Origin: Coffea arabica
Lineage: Eukaryota > Streptophyta > Magnoliopsida > Gentianales > Rubiaceae
NCBI RefSeq assembly: GCF_036785885.1
Contig: NC_092323.1
Coordinates: forward strand, 4,690,501-4,754,500
Direction: 5' to 3'
DNA length: 64,000 nt
Below are positions 44,528 through 56,563 of this stretch, in pieces. Under the pieces are notes generated by a model that did no database searches, was not told where the DNA came from, and saw only the letters and a program-made list of their open reading frames with translations. Position 1 is the first letter of the stretch. Every line of letters begins with the position of its first letter. Position numbers and translations under genes: made by a program.

Positions 44528-45333
44528 TAGAGTAGTTGCGGACGAAAGAGAATTCGGGGTTGCACTTGTATGTGCAGTATTCTTCTAGATATATGTGCAC
44601 TAATGTGGTATTCTTCTAGACCTTTAAACCGAAATTTCGGGAGCAATCATGCAAACGTAAAGAAAATTTTCAGATGCTCCAAGGTGTCTGTTTGCAGCAG
44701 AACAGCTAATAATTGAGCTCCAAACTGCAGGCATGGACATGGAGTACATTAAACTTGTCAGGGAAGACTTCTTGGTTCCAAAATGCCGAAGAACATGTAA
44801 GAAGCCAACTACAGAATACATGATATCTCCTTTCTTTTGTTCTTTTAGGCTTGATTTTTTTTTTTTTTTTTGGATAGAAATAAGGATAAATATATTAATT
44901 AATTCCTCCAGGCTTGATGCACATCAAGTATGTTTGCTTTATTACGTGTGTCTATGTGTGAGCACTCATCATTGGGGAATGATCAATCGGAAAACCACTA
45001 GTTCTAAAGGAACTAAATACCAGAATTCTTGGCAATCATCAACGCTTGGCATCCAAGTTACTCTACGTTCTTGGAGCTGTACCAGTTGAATCCTGCTATC
45101 AGTCCGTGGCAAGTTGTGAAACTGAGGGTCTAAGCGTGGAGCAAAGTCATTGCAGCCCAGAGACAGGAACGAGTTTTACATTTGATAGTCATCAGAGAAT
45201 ATTCAGAGTACTCGAGGAAGATTTTTCTAGTGTCTCAAGAATTGTTGAACTCAGGAAAATGTTTAGATACAAAATAGAAATAACTATCAATGAGCGAGAG
45301 AATTAGGTGAACTGGATATGTAAATTTGCTATC
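44528..45333. other. Intergenic, upstream of TBL gene 4
   Basis: Promoter region of TBL gene 4. A plus-strand open stretch at 45046-45306 has balanced codon use and reads like coding sequence (TSFTFDSHQRIFRVLEEDF), but it starts with TTG, has no recognised family and stops 27 bp before the retrotransposon's target site. It may be a fragment of an old gene. Confidence 0.4.
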
Positions 45334-47553
45334 TGAAGAAGTCATTTTTGTCCTGCTGGAGTGGATCACCCGAGCTGGAGAAGACCTCTGATCCTAGGTG
45401 GTTGACTCAGACGAGGTCACCTGCTCAAATTGTAAGAGGGACTATAGTCCCCGGTGTAACTCCGAAACTTAAGGGTCCGTTTGGATTAGCTGTTTTTGGG
45501 GTTGTTTTTCAAAAACAGCACTGTAGCATTTCGTTTTTCAAATACAAGTCCGTTTGGATTAGTTGTTTTTGGGGTTGTTTTTCAAAAACTATATGAAAAA
45601 CTTTTACTGTAGATTTTTTTGGATTATTTTTAGAGGTATTTTTAAAACATATTTTTGAGTATTTTTATAATTTTTTATTTTTATATTTATATACATTTAT
45701 GCATTTATAATACATTTATAAATACTTATAAATAAATATATTTATATAAAAATATATAAATGCATTATATTATATATAATACATAATATAAATATATTTA
45801 TAAATGTATAAATTATAAATGAATATTATATAAATGTTTATTATAATTTAAAATTTAAAATTTTTATATATTTATATTTATATACATTTATGCATTTATA
45901 ATATATTTATAAATAAATATATTTATATATTTAAATAAATATATAAATGTATTATATTATATATAATACATAATATAAATATATTTATAAATGTATAACT
46001 GTATATTATTATAAATTATAAATTATAATAAATATCATATAAATGTATAATTTATAACTTATAATTTATATATTTTTATATTTTTATACATTTATACATT
46101 TATAATACATTTATAAATATTTATAAATGAATATATTTATATATTTATATAAAAATATATAAATGTATTATATTATATATAATAGATAATTTAAATATAT
46201 TAATAAATGTATAAATGTATATTATTATAAATGTGTATAAATTATAAATGAATATTATATAAATGTATAAATTAATATATTATAAATATTTATTAATATT
46301 ATGTATAAATGTATGAATATAATTAATATAAATGTATTAATATTATGTATAAATGTATAATTAATATTATGTATATTATTATAAATGTATAAATGTATTA
46401 TATTATATATAATACATAATATAATGTATTTTATAAATATACATATATATATTATGTATAAATGTATAATATATAAAATATATATTATGTATATATTAAA
46501 TATATAATATATAATATACAATATTTATATAAATGTATAGTTACATATTTATATTATATATAATTTATATAATATATAATATTTATATAAATATATTATA
46601 AATGTATACAAATATATTTTATATAAAATAAAATATTTATAAAATGTATAAATAAATATATAAATATATAATATTACAAATATATAATATATATAATATT
46701 AATTAATATTAATATAATTTATATATAATATACATAATTGAAATATACATATTATATATATTAATATCTATTATAAAACAAAATTGCATAAATATATTTA
46801 TAAATTTATATATATATAAATAAATGTATTTATATAAAATATAATATTTATTTCAATTGATATAATATATAATATTATACATAATTGGAATAAATATATT
46901 TAAATTAATATAATATATATATCCTATATTTAATTGAAATAAACATATTAAATATGTATTTGGAGTTGTTTTTGATATATTGTTTGGATATGTGTTTTTG
47001 AAATTGTTTTTGAAATACACATTTACTGTAGCATTTGGAATGTGAAAAACAGTTTTTCAAAAACAGTCCCAAAAACAAGAATCCAAACGGACCCTAAGTC
47101 AGTTCGGGAATGAAGTAGTAATGAGTATAGAGAAGACTAGTATGCCTTTACCCGAAATTTGGCCGTCCCCCTCTCAGTAGAAGTCTTGAGTATTTATAGA
47201 GGATGGACAGGAGAGAGGGACTGCTTGCACAGGTCCCTAGAGATCTGGCAGAGTCAGCGTATCAAAGTGACTCAATGGACTCTGCAGAAAGGTGCGCCGG
47301 GACAGCTGTGTCAGTCGGCGCGTGTCAGAGCAGCTTTGCCAGAAATGTCAGAGGTATCAGAGGTGTCAGAGGTCATGTTTCACAACTCCGGTTGTCTGGT
47401 CACCATAATTGACTTCGGCTAAGTAAAGGAAAACCTTAGCCGAGGCTGTAATTAAGCCGAAGTCCTAACGCGATGGCGAACGGCCGAGGTGGTCGGAGCC
47501 TAAGAGACATAGGGCGGGACCCCAGCTCTGCCGAACTGGAAATACCCTCCTCA
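45334..47553 (-). repeat. 3' LTR (left copy), split by a Tourist-type insertion
   Basis: 595 bp of LTR once the 1,622-bp insertion and its 3-bp duplication are set aside. It matches the right LTR over the full length with about two differences. Next to it, inside the element, a G-rich run (GGGGGGCTTAG on minus) is the likely polypurine tract. Confidence 0.93.
45473..47094. mobile_element. Harbinger/Tourist-type element, 1,622 bp, nested in the 3' LTR
   Basis: Inverted ends GGGTCCGTTTGGATT and AATCCAAACGGACCC. TAA flanks both sides (45470-45472, 47095-47097), and the right LTR shows the empty site with one TAA. The left end contains a second copy of the terminal sequence about 75 bp inside (from 45549). 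Subterminal ACTGTAG motifs are present at both ends. The core from about 45,650 to 46,960 is almost pure A/T, built of ATTTATA- and ATATAAAT-like units. No transposase is encoded. Confidence 0.95.
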
Positions 47554-47829
47554 CTAAGCCCCCCAAGCCTCGGGAAGGGCGAGGTCGCGGTACCCCGAAG
47601 TGGCTACTTCCCGGGGCTGATAAGGGTGTAAGACACGGAGTGTTGGGACACGTCATTACCGTGCGGATGAGACTGAATGAGGGGTGAAAGGACGGCTGTC
47701 AGCTATAATGATGACTCCGTGGATGGACGTGAAATCAACGGTCAGATGAACAGTCCTCATTAAATGAGGAGAGAGGTTGCGTCCTTACGGATCCCAAAGG
47801 TTTTGCCCTTTCATCTCCTCCCTGTTAGC

Positions 47830-47840
47830 CTATAAATAGG
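47830..47840 (+). promoter_or_regulatory. TATA box ahead of the retrotransposon's antisense ORF
   Basis: CTATAAATAGG on the plus strand, about 145 nt before the first ATG of the antisense ORF region, followed by a CT/CA-rich leader-like stretch. It is separate from the LTR promoter. Confidence 0.45.
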
Positions 47841-47983
47841 GGTCCCTTTTTACCAATTTACTCTTCACCAGAAATCAAGAATCACCACAGAGCTCTATTT
47901 CTTCGTCTTTTCACTTCGGCACACTTTCAAACCACATCCTGAGTAAGTTCACTTCTTCTTCTTCTTCATTTCTCCCTCTAGCA

Positions 47984-50177
47984 ATGGCTAGAACTGCCCG
48001 TACTCATAGAGAGACAGTGAGGCCCGACTTCGCCGAAGCAGAAAGGCCTGAACCCTCCGAAGAGAGAACGGTTTCTGAGGCCGGGGAAGGGGGGCCGAAG
48101 CGTCTCATCAGGCCGGGACACCCCAGGGAGAAAGCGAGGGAACCGAGGTCGAGGGGGAGGTCCTCTACAACGACGACCTCGGCGACGAAGTTCCAAGGGA
48201 CGAGGGAGTGCAAGAGCCTACTACTCCTCCGAACCTGGAAGCAATTGACTACGGCATTGTTCCTCAATTCGGCAGCGTAATGACTGAAGCAATGATCATC
48301 GAGGTGGTTCGTCAGTATCACTGGAGGAGGGACTACACTATTTATACTCCTCAGACGAACCAGTCAGCCGAGCTCCCTCCACGAGGTAGAGTGGCCATAT
48401 ATATCGATCAGTTGGAGGCAGGGCTAAGGATTCCAACCACAAGGTTCCTCCGGGACTGCCTGAGATATTGGGGGGTGAGAATCACTCAGCTCGTCCCCAA
48501 CGCAATCCGGGTCCTGGTCGGCTTCCAGATGTTGTGCCGACATCAAGAAATAACTCCCACAGTCAACCTCTTCCGTCGCTGCTACTCGCTCAAGAATAGT
48601 GGGACTGAGAAGGGGTGGTACTACTTCGGGAACAAAGTCCCGAAGTTGGTGGTAGATGCACCTTCCTCCATCAAAGAATGGAAGAGGAACTTCATTTTTG
48701 TCCCGGCTGGTGACTTCCCCAGGGGGTTCTGGTGGAGGCCGCCTACTCCGGTCAAAGAGACCTCTCCGGGTAAACTGGAGGAGGATAACTTCAGAAAGCT
48801 GACGGGGTCGGGCCTCTGGATCAATTGTTGGGATTTTCCGGAGTCAGTTCTTGTCGACGGCGGCATCAGCCGAGCTCTTATCAGCCCGGATCGTCCGCCA
48901 TTCTATTCTAATAGGCTTGAAAAGCATTGTACTTCCTTACTCCTTACTTCGTCTATTTTTTTCTTTGATTCTAACTAACTCTCCCTCTATGCTTCGCAGT
49001 GAAGAAGGTTTCCGATCTGATCACCGCGGGGCCTTCCGGGGTCAGCAAGAGGCCGTCCAAGCGTAAAGACCAGGCCGAACCATCCACTCGGCCGAAGAAG
49101 AAGACCACCTCGGCACACACCACTACGGTGACGGCAAGCCGGGGGTCTCCCGTGATAATCACCGGGGAGGGCTCCCGCACTTCATCGATTCCGGCCGGGG
49201 TGGGTCGTACTTCGGCTATACCCGTTGGGGTGCCGATCAGGGGGATAACAATTGCCACTCCACCTCGGGGCAGAGGAACAACGGCATTTCCCGTAGTCCC
49301 CGTGACGGGGTCCTCTCTCTTTAATCTTCACAACGTCCCCTCACAAGAGGCCGGGGAGGATAAAAGGCACTCCGGCGCGCAATGGTGTCCGGAGTGGGAG
49401 CTCAACGTGAATGACCGCTGCAAGGACCCCTTGGTCGCTCAGGAGCTTCTGGTCCACTCAGTTCTGCCCCGAGATAATACCTACGCCAGGAAGCTTTCCC
49501 CAGGCGAACTGATGCAGAGTGCTTCCGTCTCATGGGCATCCACCACTGCTTTCCTCGCCGAACTGACCCAACGCTATACAAGGTTGGTTGAAAACTATCA
49601 ACCTTCTGCCGAGCTCGAGAAGAAGGTTGCCGAGCTTGAAGAAAAACTGAAGGCGACCGAGCAGGAGCGCGACAAGGCCGAAGCAGCGCGAGAACAGGCC
49701 GAGGCTACCAAGAACTCTTTGATGACTGCCCTTGCCGAAGAGAAAGATAGAAGGGCTCAGGAAGAAGAGTCAACCAAGGCGGCCATCGAAGAAGCGGGGA
49801 CCTCGGCGCTGGAAGCCTTCCGGAAATCAGAGGGTTTCCTCAAGGATCTCGGCGAGCTCACCTTGCCGAGCTTCATGTTCGGATACACTTCGGCAGTTCA
49901 CGATGCGGCTCCCTTCCTCACTCCGGATCAGCTGGAGTCCCTTCATGATAAGGAACATTTCAACGAGGATGCCAAGGAACTATTCGATCGTATGGCCGAA
50001 GGCATCCGGACTGGAAGGGATCTGGCCGAGGTAAAGGAGGAGTTCAACAAATGGCTATCTGAATTTGATCTGGACGGGGCTGAACTCCAAGGTGACGACA
50101 TCGGCAGTGATGGCGGAGGTGATGGCGGAGGTGAGGCCACCGGAGATAACCAGGAAGCCGAAGCAGGGGGCGCGTAG
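47984..50177 (+). mobile_element. Antisense extra ORF region of the Tat element
   Basis: Lies between integrase and the 3' LTR, in the opposite sense to gag-pol, as known for part of the Tat lineage. The first half is a globular part of the plant-transposon-protein type (WGVRITQLVPNAIRVLVGF, then FFGNK/FVPAGDFP-like blocks). The second half is a charged coiled coil (about 49,600-49,830) with a Gly/Asp/Glu-rich tail. An intron near 48,930-49,000, with a standard pyrimidine-rich acceptor, probably separates the two. Function unknown; the family's antisense proteins have been proposed to act in regulation or assembly. About one break may be present. Confidence 0.75.
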
Positions 50178-50447
50178 ATAATAGGCTGATTTTTGTAATA
50201 GGTAAGCCGAGGTCATAGATAACCTTGGCCATTCGCTTGTAACTCTGAGCCGAGATCACATGTGGCCTCGGCTTTTTGCTTTTCGTATCTCAATATAACT
50301 GGTTTTTTGACTTGCATTTTGTCTTCTTTTTGATTGAGTTTTGTCTTCTTCTTTGGCTACTGCTTTGTCCCCTTATTTTTCACTTAAGACAGAATGAGAA
50401 TAAGTGAGAAATAATTTAAAGAGGTGAGATATAAAAACACGTACCCC

Positions 50448-53400
50448 TCACGGGTAATACAACTTAAGGTTCTCAGCATGCCAGGTTCGGGGCACCCGCG
50501 AACCATCTCGGTAAGCTAGTTTACAATATCCATTTTGGCTGGACTCAATAACACGGTAGGGTCCCTCCCACTTGGGGTTGAGTTTTCCCTGGGGCTCAGC
50601 TCGGCTGACAGAATTTTTCCGGAGCACAAGATCTCCCGGACTAAATCTTAAGTGTTTGACCCGAGCATTGTAATAGCCAGCTAGGATATTTTTGTATGTC
50701 GCAACTTTGGCCGCGGCCATATCACGCTTCCCTTCGGCGAGGTCGAGGTCAACACGCCGCTCCTCTTCATTGACTTCGGCAGCATACGCAGCCATTCGCG
50801 GGCTAGGTGTAATGAATTCAGCTGGAACGACGGCCTCGGACCCATAAGTTAGGGAAAACGGCGTTTCTTGGGTCGCTGATCTCGGCGTAGTCCGGTAGGA
50901 CCACAGTACGCTGGGGAGCTCTTCCATCCACGATGATCCAGCCCGGTGGAGCCTGGTCTTGAGGCCATGGAGGAGAGTTCGGTTGAAGTTTTCGGCTTGT
51001 CCATTCGCCTGAGGGTGCCCTACCGAGGTGAAATGTTGCTTGATCCCCAAGTTCTCGCACCATGCCTTGAAAGGGTTATCAGCAAACTGCTTTCCATTAT
51101 CCGAGATCACAACTCGAGGTAATCCGAAGCGGCAGACCACGTTTTTCCAGAAAAATTTTTGGACAGCCAATCCAGTGATGCTTCTCAGGGGCTCAGCCTC
51201 GACCCATTTAGTGAAGTAATCCACCGCCACCACCACGTAGGCATAGTTGCCTGGGACCCTGGGGAATGGACCGATTATGTCGGTCCCCCATTGTTCGAAG
51301 GGCCATGGCGAGGTGATGGGGATCATAAGATTAGTCGGTTGGTGGTGCTCAGGGGCATGGTGTTGACAAGAAGGACAACAGAGCACCATGACCTGGGCGT
51401 CCACCTTCATGGTGGGCCAAAAGTACCCAAGAAGCAAAGCTTTCTTCACCAGCATCCTGAAGCCGACGTGGGCACCACAAAGTCCCTCATGAATGTCTTC
51501 AAGGACCCTCTCGCCTTCTTCCGGGGTGATACACCGTAACCAGGGGCCGAGGTAGGACCTCTTGTACAGGAGGCCCTGCCGGAGAGTGTACCGAGCTGCT
51601 TTTCGCTGAAGCTTTCGCGATTCAGCTCGGTTTTCGGGGAGCTCACCCCGACTGAGATATCGAGTCAAGGGCCCCATCCATGTGTCCCCAGGGTAAACGG
51701 GGTACACGACCTCAGCTAAATATCCCGGCTCGGCTAGAACTTCTACGAGGACCGTCTTGTTCAGATCGGAGAAAGAGGTGGAAGCAAGCCGGGAGAGGGC
51801 GTCAGCCCTTCGGTTTTGTGACCGCGGTATTCTTTGGATTTCAAAAGACTCGAAATGTGTGGCCAGCTGGAGTACCTTGGAGAGGTAACGCTGCATCACC
51901 TCTTCCCTGGCCTCGTATTCGCCTAGTATTTGGCACACGACGAGTTGGGAGTCGCTATAGACCATGATATGCGCGGCCCCGAGCTTACGAGCTATTTGCA
52001 GACCGGCAATGACGGCTTCGTATTCGGTTTCGTTGTTGGAAGCGGCAAAATCGAACCTCAAGGCGTACGAGCAAATTTCCCTTTGGGGATCTTCAAGGAG
52101 CAAACCGGCTCCGCTACCCTCGCTATTGGATGAGCCATCCACATGCAAGGTCCATCGCTGGGGCTCGGAGGTGGACGGGGTGACAGTCTGGGTGGTAGCC
52201 GGGATGGTCTCACTCACTTCCTCAAAGGTAAGCTCGGCCAGAAAATCTGCGAGAACCTGGGCTTTAATTGCTGTGCGGGGCTCATAAGATAAGTCGTACT
52301 CTCCCAGCTCGATGGCCCACTTGGTGAGGCGTCCAGAGGCCTCCGGTCGCGACAGGACCTGCCGAAGTGGTTGATCTGTCCGTAGACAGACGTGATGAGC
52401 CAAGAAGTACGGCTTAAGCCTACGAGCTGCGTGAATTAAGGCCAGCACAAGTTTCTCCGCCTGAGTGTACCTGGTCTCAGGACCTCGGAGGACTCGGCTG
52501 ACATAATAAACGGGCGTTTGGACACCCCCCTCCCTTATCAGTACGGCACTCACAGCTTCAGCTGCAGCGGATAAGTACAAGAATAACTTGTCCCCTGGGC
52601 GAGGTGAGGTGAGTGTTGGGAGGTGGTTGAGGTAATCTTTTAACTGTTCAAACGCCTGTTGGCACTCTTCCGTCCAGGAAAATTTGTCAGCTTTCTTGAG
52701 GACTTTGAAAAATGGCAGTGCCTTGGAGGCTGACTGCGATAAGAACCGGTTCAAGGCGGCCAGCCGCCCTGTCAGTCTCTGGACGTCTCGGACACACCGT
52801 GGTGAGGACATTTATTGGATGGCCCTCACCTTGTCTGGATTTGCTTCAATACCCCGCCTGAAGACGAGGTAGCCTAGGAACTTTCCCGAAGTGACCCCGA
52901 GGACACATTTCTTGGGGTTCAACATCATTCGGGTCTCCCGAAGGACTTCCAGGACTTCCTTCAGGTCGGCAAGAAATGCTGAAGTTGTCTAGCTTTTGAG
53001 GAGGATGTCATCCACATAGGCCTCGACAGTTCGGCCGATCTGAGATTTAAAAGCTTGGTTGACCAAGCGTTGATACGTGGCCCCGGCGTTCTTTAGTCCG
53101 AAAGGCATGGTGGTGTAACAGTATGTGCCTTTGTCCGTATAGAAGGCGGTCTTTTCTTGATCCTCCGGACTCATCCCGATCTGGTGGTACCCTTTAAAGG
53201 CGTCAAAAAAGCAGAGGACTTCATATCCCATTGTCGAGTCCACCAAGGTGTCGACCTTAGGCAATGGGTAACAATCCTTGGGGCAAGCCTTGTTGAGGTC
53301 GGTGAAGTCGACGCACATTCTCCAGGCCCCGGTGTCCTTCTTCACCATGACCGGGTTGGATAACCAGGTCGGATATTGGACCTCCCGGATGATCTTTGCG

Positions 53401-55925
53401 GGGAGGAGCTTATCCACTTCTTCGCCAACAGCTCGGCTGCGTTCAGGGCCGAGGTGCCTTCGTTTTTGTTTGACCGGGCGGATTTGGGGATCGACATTCA
53501 GCTCATGTATCATGAGGTGATGTGGAACTCCTTGAACCTCCTCCGCGGCCCAGGCGAAGACGTCCCGGTACCTTCTTAGGAGGTCTACCATACCTCTTTT
53601 AACAGGATCGGGCAGTCGGGTACCAACGCGAACTGTCTGATCAGGCTTCGTGGGGTCCAGAGGGAGTTCTTCCACCTCATCCCCAGTTTCCAGCCTTGGG
53701 ATCTTCTCAGCTCGCTGAGGATCAATGCTATCTATCGAGAGGATATTTGACCTCTTCTCAGGCCTTGCCCCGGAGGTTGATGGGGAGGTTGCTTGTAGAG
53801 TGGCGAGGTAACATTCTCGGGCAGCGCAGACGTCGCTGCTGACTTCGGCCACTCCCGCTGGAGTAAGAAACTTGAAGCTTAAGTGATAGGTGGAGTACAC
53901 TGCCCGCAAAGCATTGAGTGTAGGCCGGCCGAGGAGTAAGTTGTACGGGGAGTCAGCCTTGACTACTACGAAGTTGACGGGGATGGTTCTGCAGCGGGGG
54001 TGACGCCCTACAGTTACTGTCAGAGCCACCATCCCTTCGGGGTGCACAATGTGTCCCCCGAACCCAACAAGAGGGGTCCTTACCGGGGTCATGCACCCCC
54101 TGGCCAGTTTAAAGCTTTCAAAGGTGCGGAGGTACATGACGTCCACTGAACTTCTCGGGTCAATGTAAACCTTTTTCACGATGTAGTTATTGGTGAGGAT
54201 TTCAATCACCAAGGCTTCATGACTGCTGGAGGCGGCCGGGACGGGGTCACTAGGCCCGTAAGTGATCACTTCGGATAGGCGAGAATTGGCCTCGGCCTGG
54301 TCCGGGTTGGCTTGTCTGTAGGTCCTCTTCCGGGAGTTCTGGCTATCTCCTCCCGTCGGACCGCCGGCAATGGTGTTAATGACTCCGGCAATATTTGGCC
54401 CATATCCCAGTCTTTGACCTGAGGATCCATCTCCGGGTGGCCTTTTCGGCTCCCTAGGATCCTCGGGAGGTCGGCAACTGCTTCTTGACGTCCGCCTCTC
54501 ATCACGGCGTTGGTCACCCCGCTTATCGCGTCGATTCTCATCACGCGAATGACCTCCACTTCGGCGAATGAACTGCTTGAGGTGGCCTTGTCGGATGAGG
54601 TTCTCAATCTCCTTTTTGAGATCGTTGCATTCCTCTGTTTCATGTCCGATGTCCCGGTGATACAGACAGTAGAGGTTCGAGTTCCTCTTGTCTTTGCTGC
54701 CCCACATTTTGGGAGGGGCCTTTCCGAGGTTGTTTTGTTCCATTACAGACAGCACGCGGGATCGGGAGGTGTTCAGGGGAGTCAGTGCGGACTCTGGGAT
54801 GGGCGACTTCCCCTTAGAGATCCTGTCGAACACACTACGACGATCTCGGCCGGGACTCTGGAAACCGCTTCCAGTCCCAGCTTCACCTCGGCCAAGCTCC
54901 TTCCCTTTTCGGGGGTCGGCCCTTGGGCGAGCAGCTTGTACTTCTTTCTTCATGCGATTGAGGTCCTCGGCCTGTATGCCCTTTTCGACCTTCAACCACA
55001 GTTCGTGGAGTGTGCGGGAATACTTCTTGTGGATCCCCGTGTTGAACACTCCAGATACAAGCCCATGAGTGAATGCAGCAATAGTGACTTGCTCATTGGG
55101 CTTAGGTATTTGTACGCTTTCCTCATGGAACCTCTGGACGTACGACCGAAGTGACTCCCCCGGGTTTTGCTGCATATTCAGCAGATAAGCCGAGGTCCTG
55201 GTCGTAGGTCGGGAGGAGATGAATCGATGGAGGAATCTTTCCACCAGTTCCCCCAGGGTGGAGATGCTCCTAGGTTCTAATCCCCAGAACCATTTTCGAG
55301 CAGTGCCCTGGAGGAACACTGGAAAAGCTCGGCATATGATTGGGTCAGGGATGCAATATAAACGGAAAGCCGAGATGAAGGCGTGGATGTGATCCTCGGG
55401 ATCACCTCGGCCGTCATAAGATGGTATAGAGGGAAGCTTGAAGTTTGGAGGAAGCCTTTCCTCGTTAATGTCATCAGTGAAGGGCGGGGCCCTCATATAA
55501 TTCACCCCGGGTATTCCCAGGGGCCGAGGTTCCTCCTCGGGTCGTCGGCCTAGGAGTCCTCGGGAAAATGCCTTGGTCATGGAAGCTACCTTAGAAGTGG
55601 CCTTAGAAAGTGCCCACTTTGAGGCACTTCGGCTTAGGCGCCTTCCATCAGATTCTTCGTCAGATGAACCTTCGGGAGACCCATCTGATTTTCTTTTAGA
55701 GGACTCAGCCTTCTGCTTGCCTTGCCTCTTTAAATATCTCCCCAACTCCTCAAAGATGTTGGGATTCTCGGTTACAAACTCGGCCATACGCGTTATGGCC
55801 TCTTCGTTTGCGGGCTGAGTCCTTGGGGGCTCCTGCCCTTCTGAAATATCTTCCGGTTGGGCTGCATTGCTTTGCTCAGCACCAATGGTGAGAGCCCTCC
55901 TGCTCTTAGAACGCGTAGGCTTCAT
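50448..55925 (-). mobile_element. gag-pol region of the Tat element
   Basis: Read on minus from 55925. gag comes first (conserved WFWGLEPRSISTLGEL and NPGESLRSYVQRF blocks, then a CHRDIGHETEEC-type knuckle). The protease region is around 54,200-53,800. Reverse transcriptase follows, with YVDDILLKS near 53,000, then RNase H, the second RNase H (HVDGSSNSEGSGAG) near 52,150, and integrase (HH-CC finger, GTDIIGPFP, SDNGKQF) down to the end. Reading is largely continuous, with about one break between the two long frames. Confidence 0.9.
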
Positions 55926-55946
55926 ATTTTGGTATTCTCGCGCTTC

Positions 55947-55963
55947 CCACAGACGGCGCCAAT
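55947..55963 (-). other. Primer binding site of the Tat element
   Basis: Right after the 5' LTR on minus, one base in, comes TGGCGCCGTCTGTGGGA. The first nine bases complement a tRNA 3' end of the ACGGCGCCA type, probably tRNA-Asp. Confidence 0.65.
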
Positions 55964-56558
55964 TGAAGAAGTCGTTTTTGTCCTGCTGGAGTGGATCACC
56001 CGAGCTGGAGAAGACCTCTGATCCTAGGTGGTTGACTCAGACGAGGTCACCTGCTCAAATTGTAAGAGGGACTATAGTCCCCGGTGTAACTCCGAAGCTT
56101 AAGTCAGTTCGGGAATGAAGTAGTAATGAGTATAGAGAAGACTAGTATGCCTTTACCCGAAATTTGGCCGTCCCCCTCTCAGTAGAAGTCTTGAGTATTT
56201 ATAGAGGATGGACAGGAGAGAGGGACTGCTTGCACAGGTCCCTAGAGATCTGGCAGAGTCAGCGTATCAAAGTGACTCAATGGACTCTGCAGAAAGGTGC
56301 GCCGGGACAGCTGTGTCAGTCGGCGCGTGTCAGAGCAGCTTTGCCAGAAATGTCAGAGGTATCAGAGGTGTCAGAGGTCATGTTTCACAACTCCGGTTGT
56401 CTGGTCACCATAATTGACTTCGGCTAAGTAAAGGAAAACCTTAGCCGAGGCTGTAATTAAGCCGAAGTCCTAACGCGATGGCGAACGGCCGAGGTGGTCG
56501 GAGCCTAAGAGACATAGGGCGGGACCCCAGCTCTGCCGAACTGGAAATACCCTCCTCA
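55964..56558 (-). repeat. 5' LTR (right copy)
   Basis: 595 bp, TG...CA. It carries a TATA box on minus (CTCTATAAATACT, about 56,194-56,206) that would drive the element's transcript. It holds the uninterrupted version of the site where the Tourist-type element sits in the other LTR. Confidence 0.95.
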
Positions 56559-56563
56559 CTATC

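Follow-up and report, generated by a model that had tools for sequence, protein, structure and literature searches.

The window, a 64,000-nucleotide stretch of the Coffea arabica genome, contains a retrotransposon in which one LTR carries a 1,622-bp insert and the other has the empty site, which raises the question of what kind of element the insert is, when it arrived and which transposase could have moved it. A preliminary description had called it a Tourist-type element from its TAA duplication.

The insert is a terminal-inverted-repeat element, non-autonomous and without assigned strand, spanning 45473 to 47094 (1,622 bp, 10.6% GC), with boundaries set by its ends and by the near-identical copies L002-L005 described below. 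It begins with GGGTCCGTTTGGATT (45473 to 45487, plus strand) and ends with AATCCAAACGGACCC (47080 to 47094, minus strand), a perfect 15-bp inverted pair, and comparison of the flanks places TAA duplications at 45470 to 45472 on the left and 47095 to 47097 on the right, the whole from one TAA to the other being C14:4735970-4737597 in the genome. A second copy of the left terminal sequence (45548 to 45589, plus strand; 98% over 42 nt) lies 73 bp inside the first, and such an inner terminus copy is also found at the 3' ends of three transposase-bearing relatives. Repeat analysis delimits, approximately at 45640 to 46960, an AT-rich core that consists of degenerate repeats, both direct and inverted; the longest frame starting within the element (88 aa) is located in this core. 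The length, perfect ends, TAA duplication and confinement to one LTR given in the preliminary description were all found in the sequence.

The host retrotransposon spans 45334 to 56558 between CTATC target duplications at 45329 to 45333 and 56559 to 56563, which were read from the flanks. Its left LTR, insert included, occupies 45334 to 47553, and the right LTR of 595 bp, delimited by LTR alignment, occupies 55964 to 56558 (both on the minus strand), with the single TAA of the empty site at 56100 to 56102. Since gag and pol are encoded on the minus strand, the insert sits in the 3' LTR of the retrotransposon. Reverse transcriptase and RNase H stand ahead of integrase, the order seen in Ty3/gypsy elements, and the host is a Ty3/gypsy-type retrotransposon. 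Antisense to gag/pol within it, a plus-strand frame at 48208 to 48978 matches Transposase_28 (E 3.3e-15), a family described as 'putative gypsy type transposon', and is possibly an additional antisense frame of the retrotransposon.

With the insert and one TAA removed, the two LTRs are 595 bases each, align without gaps and differ by exactly 2 substitutions, where about two differences had been proposed. A genome search with the right LTR gave at least 43 matches (best 40 of 216 candidates scored), of which 30 were compared, two being the window's own LTRs and the other 28 being L030-L058 without L035. In all 28 the alignment runs straight across the site and none contains the insert; many of these copies are LTR pairs of one retrotransposon, so the 28 are not independent sites. 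Since the site is empty in every other LTR compared, the empty state is ancestral and the insertion derived. Most simply, the element inserted after the retrotransposon had integrated, and the sequence of events proposed earlier is in this respect backed by the ancestral empty site.

A search of the genome for copies of the element itself (best 40 of 3,105 candidates scored) found at least three further full copies, L002 on C11, L003 on C10 and L004 on C5, which are mutually identical over 1,622/1,622 bases and from which the window copy differs at position 624 only. L005 (C8) shows no substitutions against these three and one 25-bp deletion, and the next relative among the matches scored, L006, stands at 93%. 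When flanks were compared at E 1e-5, none of the five near-identical copies matched another, and the sole flank match in this test of ten copies (70 bp, 83%) joins L004 to the older copy L012. Carriage to the other sites by a retrotransposon or in a segmental duplication was rejected on this ground and because none of L002-L008 has a match at E 1e-10 to the 1.5 kb flanking the window copy. The mobile family that had been suggested is borne out by at least four near-identical copies at unlinked sites.

A single substitution in 8,085 aligned bases dates the copy set to about 9,500 years (95% interval about 240-53,000) at 1.3e-8 substitutions per site per year, and the same rate gives 129,000 years for the LTR pair (0.13 My; 95% interval 16,000-467,000). 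At 7e-9 per site per year the point estimates become 17,700 and 240,000 years, respectively. The young age claimed earlier for the insertion agrees with the point estimate of 0.13 My, but the bound of 0.2 My does not hold as a bound, given the 95% interval of 0.016-0.47 My. A second pair of copies, L020 and L022, lies at different sites and over 1,799 bp differs by two gap positions but no substitution, suggesting that recent copies stem from more than a single source. For the window copy and its near-identical sisters, one source copy would have given rise to a recent burst, from which it is fair to infer that a helper is active at present.

To read the duplication rule of the family, we checked 29 copies (L001-L028 and L064) and retained the 22 with both ends readable; the seven dropped for a missing or damaged end were L006, L008, L012, L014, L015, L019 and L021. 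This count left out 29 of 30 exact-26-mer loci, whose sequence stops 1.5 kb beyond the 5' end; one of these, L071, has a weak end candidate with 4 mismatches. An equal 3-bp duplication is present in 16 of the 22, versus a chance agreement of 6.5% when unrelated left and right family flanks are paired (30/462 mismatched pairings). With a 3-base match that frequent by chance, the single TAA alone is weak evidence of insertion, and the case for insertion rests on the ends, on paralogous sites that are empty and on sister copies at unlinked positions.

In locus orientation the 16 duplications are TAA (three), AAT (four), AAA (two) and ATT, GTT, TAT, GTA, CAA, CAT and GAA (one each). When sorted into triplet classes that read alike on both strands, they comprise 3 TWA, 5 ANT, 0 CWG, 3 TNA and 16 N-W-N, and 13 of the 16 are neither TAA nor TTA. 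Genome-wide, 117 exact 26-mer 5' ends were found, and none with the reversed control; TWA precedes 8 of the 117 (9.2 expected from flank composition), and the middle triplet base is A or T in 100 (P 1.2e-5 at 68% AT). As the family is not TWA-specific by either count, the TAA at the window copy is incidental, and the label 'Tourist-type', which had been drawn from that TAA, falls with it. The proposed genome-wide search for the same ends with TAA flanks, with comparison of divergence, succeeded in its near-identical copies but did not recover TAA flanks as a rule. No equal 3-bp duplication is seen in six of the 22 copies, L004 (CTT/TCT), L013, L016, L018, L020 and L026, and L004 lacks it despite its very young age. 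By eye, allowing one or two extra end-adjacent bases yields AAG for L004, TAA for L020 and ATA for an element on C16 described below, and slightly inexact end cleavage possibly lies behind these flanks.

Left flanks in locus orientation were tabulated for 50 places, 21 of them two-ended copies and the other 29 exact 5' ends (L064 and L073 were left out so that no place is counted twice); C stands at -4 in 28/50 (P 1.3e-10), and A makes up 154 of 250 bases at -5 to -9 (P 1.5e-18). On the right, where flanks are read outward, 10/22 have C at -4 (P 0.003) and another 10 have T, and A makes up 67/110 bases at -5 to -9 (P 4e-9). The pattern was first noticed on 30 exact ends and was checked on the other 87, unused for discovery, in which C stands at -4 in 32/87 (P 2.4e-6) and the middle base is W in 73/87 (P 6e-4). 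AAA occupies -9 to -7 in 37 of the 117 exact ends (8 in the first 30, 29 in the other 87) versus 4.8 expected from flank composition. The family target is palindromic (A-tract, C, N-W-N, G, T-tract), although no position of it is invariant; its central three bases are duplicated, and the outer two bases of that triplet are nearly free. The window insertion matches this context loosely (GAAACT-TAA-GTC, with T rather than C at -4). Two exact 5' ends 8 kb apart, C14:38384229 and C14:38392309, share the same nine flank bases and are probably a local duplication rather than two insertions.

Candidate sources of a transposase were sought by a genome search that gave at least 193 DDE_Tnp_4 matches at E <= 0.001 (best 150 of 1,152 candidates scored); hAT matches are also present in the transposase search. 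The sole partner element read end to end, at C14:17941332-17947349 (6,018 bp), has AAT on both sides, ends in GGCTCTGTTTGGATC and AATCCAAACGGATCC, and carries at its 3' end an inner terminus repeat 73 bp in, as the window element does; the two elements were likened by their ends. Its putative transposase is spread over separate frames, with matches to DDE_Tnp_4 (E 2.7e-18) and Plant_tran (E 1.6e-10). A Myb-like frame matches Myb_DNA-bind_3 (E 9.7e-5, 23.7 bits against a cut-off of 23.6), and an N-terminal frame reaches no family at cut-off, with HTH_Tnp_4 at E 0.053.

A second transposase element, at C16:29171339-29176810, was located by terminal match, with its 5' end at C16:29171339. Its 3' end equals the 5' end of the window element at 25/26 and 35/37 bases, and its flanks, ATAT/ATAT, contain no strict 3-bp duplication (TAT versus ATA). 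Among the 40 places most like this C16 end (best 40 of 610 candidates scored, compared with the 150 transposase matches; 10 of 50 rows were dropped as second pieces at the same places), 36 lie at most 2 kb 3' of a transposase match in the expected orientation (chance 0.00025 each), and the other four comprise one that is 350 bp off on the same strand, two at 3.5 and 8 kb and one that is far. Because the query was itself taken beside a transposase, this count ties the end to transposase elements; it does not show that they moved the window element. Transposase exons at four places (C4:58142, C4:27749277, C2:51818387 and C19:32138941) score equally and are free of stop codons, which suggests that a related transposase element spread recently. 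At L061, L062, L083 and L088, which are less AT-rich after the 5' end and were inspected as candidate carriers of a transposase, no transposase frame was seen by eye. Two of these, L061 and L083, have only about the first 69 bp of the 5' end (from base 1501 in element orientation) followed by unrelated sequence, and the change comes at almost the same position in both, as though only one end had inserted or the copies had broken at a common weak point.

Taken with a probability of roughly 85%, our reading is that a Ty3/gypsy-type retrotransposon had already integrated when a non-autonomous PIF/Harbinger (PHIS) DNA transposon entered its 3' LTR by cut-and-paste. Affiliation to PHIS is well supported by the ends and the partner transposase, and the broader affiliation implied by the preliminary description stands, since the same kind of ends bound elements with a DDE_Tnp_4 (PIF/Harbinger-type) transposase. 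The terminal inverted repeat contains GGGTCCGTTTGG, which has the form G(N)5GTT given as a motif in the available part of PMC2213677; a 3-bp duplication is found at the proportion stated above (16/22), and DDE and Myb/SANT frames lie between matching ends in the C14 element, the only one read fully. Transposase and Myb-like protein of the partner lineage would bind the element ends in trans, and the bound ends would be joined to the target at a 3-bp stagger, and the target would be chosen by its flanking A/T tracts together with the C/G pair and the A/T at the centre. The window element may have been mobilised in trans in this way by the partner lineage.

An ordinary Tourist MITE mobilised by a PIF/Harbinger transposase of the canonical, TWA-specific kind, the reading of the preliminary description, would share much of this, namely a terminal inverted repeat whose shape, GGGTCCGTTTGG, fits the PIF motif as excerpted from PMC2213677, a TAA duplication in the window and a partner transposase matching DDE_Tnp_4 and Plant_tran. 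We consider it improbable, however, as TWA accounts for only 3/16 clean duplications and 8/117 exact 5' ends, and the sole clean partner duplication is AAT. About as improbable is a retrotransposon that came in with both LTRs filled and whose right copy of the element was then lost by precise excision or gene conversion, which would make the empty right LTR derived. Elements of the superfamily usually excise precisely and leave no footprint, and in the part of PMC2836001 on mPing in yeast excision was nearly always precise (109/110 events); against this, the 28 other LTR copies include no filled one, so that no filled parent is known, and a single insertion explains the site more simply. For conversion, another copy is an unlikely donor, since the closest others found are about 95-96% identical (best 40 of 216 candidates scored), whereas the window LTRs differ at 2/595. 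Excision or conversion had been named beforehand as what could overturn the insertion, and no copy among the 28 speaks for it.

Movement by a CACTA-type transposase is barely credible. Duplications of 3 bp with free sequence are typical of the CACTA superfamily, and those of the element family are varied in just this way, but CACTA elements end in CACTA/CACTG and the termini here are GGGTCC; the same kind of ends, moreover, bound DDE_Tnp_4 elements.

Groups of PHIS are distinguished by their duplication, in the part of PMC4482050 available to us, as PIF/Harbinger (TWA), Pangu (ANT), NuwaI (CWG), NuwaII (C|TNA|G), ISL2EU (AT) and Spy (none). The family duplication fits none of these six published groups, from which the family is set apart by its duplication rule. 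TWA, required for narrow PIF/Harbinger and Tourist elements, is found at 3/16 (8/117 versus 9.2 expected). Pangu, NuwaI and NuwaII resemble our family in combining the DDE superfamily with non-TWA 3-bp duplications, and NuwaII likewise keeps C and G just outside the triplet (all from the same part of PMC4482050). Unlike these groups, the family shows ANT in 5/16, CWG in 0/16 and TNA in 3/16, although C at -4 is enriched as in NuwaII.

With maize PIF and rice mPing/Ping/Pong the family shares a G(N)5GTT terminal inverted repeat, a 3-bp duplication, an extended palindromic target and a partner with a DDE transposase and a Myb-like frame; unlike in Tourist/PIF/Harbinger, the triplet is N-W-N here and TWA there. 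The element, at 1.6 kb and with an AT-rich repeat core, is longer than most Tourist MITEs. Such a core is not new: among the PIF/Harbinger families of Medicago, some with a (TA)n core and some with 60-bp tandem repeats are described in the accessible portion of PMC2213677. In the excerpted text of PMC2836001 the extended target preference covers 9 bp for plants and 15 bp for vertebrates, against about 19 bp here (A-tract-C / G-T-tract); vertebrate Harbinger elements share with the family a longer target preference. Elsewhere the duplication is given, in the passages available, as TAA for barley Harbinger elements (PMC5738225), mostly TAA or TTA for grapevine PIF (PMC2528002) and TWA for Tourist (PMC12595863). 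The PIF/Harbinger survey in PMC2213677 required, by the portion at hand, TAA or TTA with no mismatch, and because of this filter a family like that of the window element would be missed or misfiled there. In the open literature searched, neither a description of an N-W-N PHIS family nor a match to the terminal sequence of the element was found; the family may already be catalogued in subscription papers or Repbase.

We give about even odds to the proposal that these copies represent a recently active PHIS lineage with an unnamed target rule, in which specificity would have shifted from the triplet to a palindrome of about 19 bp, and which would form a seventh group defined by its duplication. 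If so, only the central A/T, common to TWA and CWG, would have been retained in the triplet. Young near-identical copies and candidate transposase elements occur together in one genome, which makes target recognition in the superfamily directly testable, and a common shortcut is corrected, in that a single TAA next to a single insertion is not enough to define the element as Tourist.
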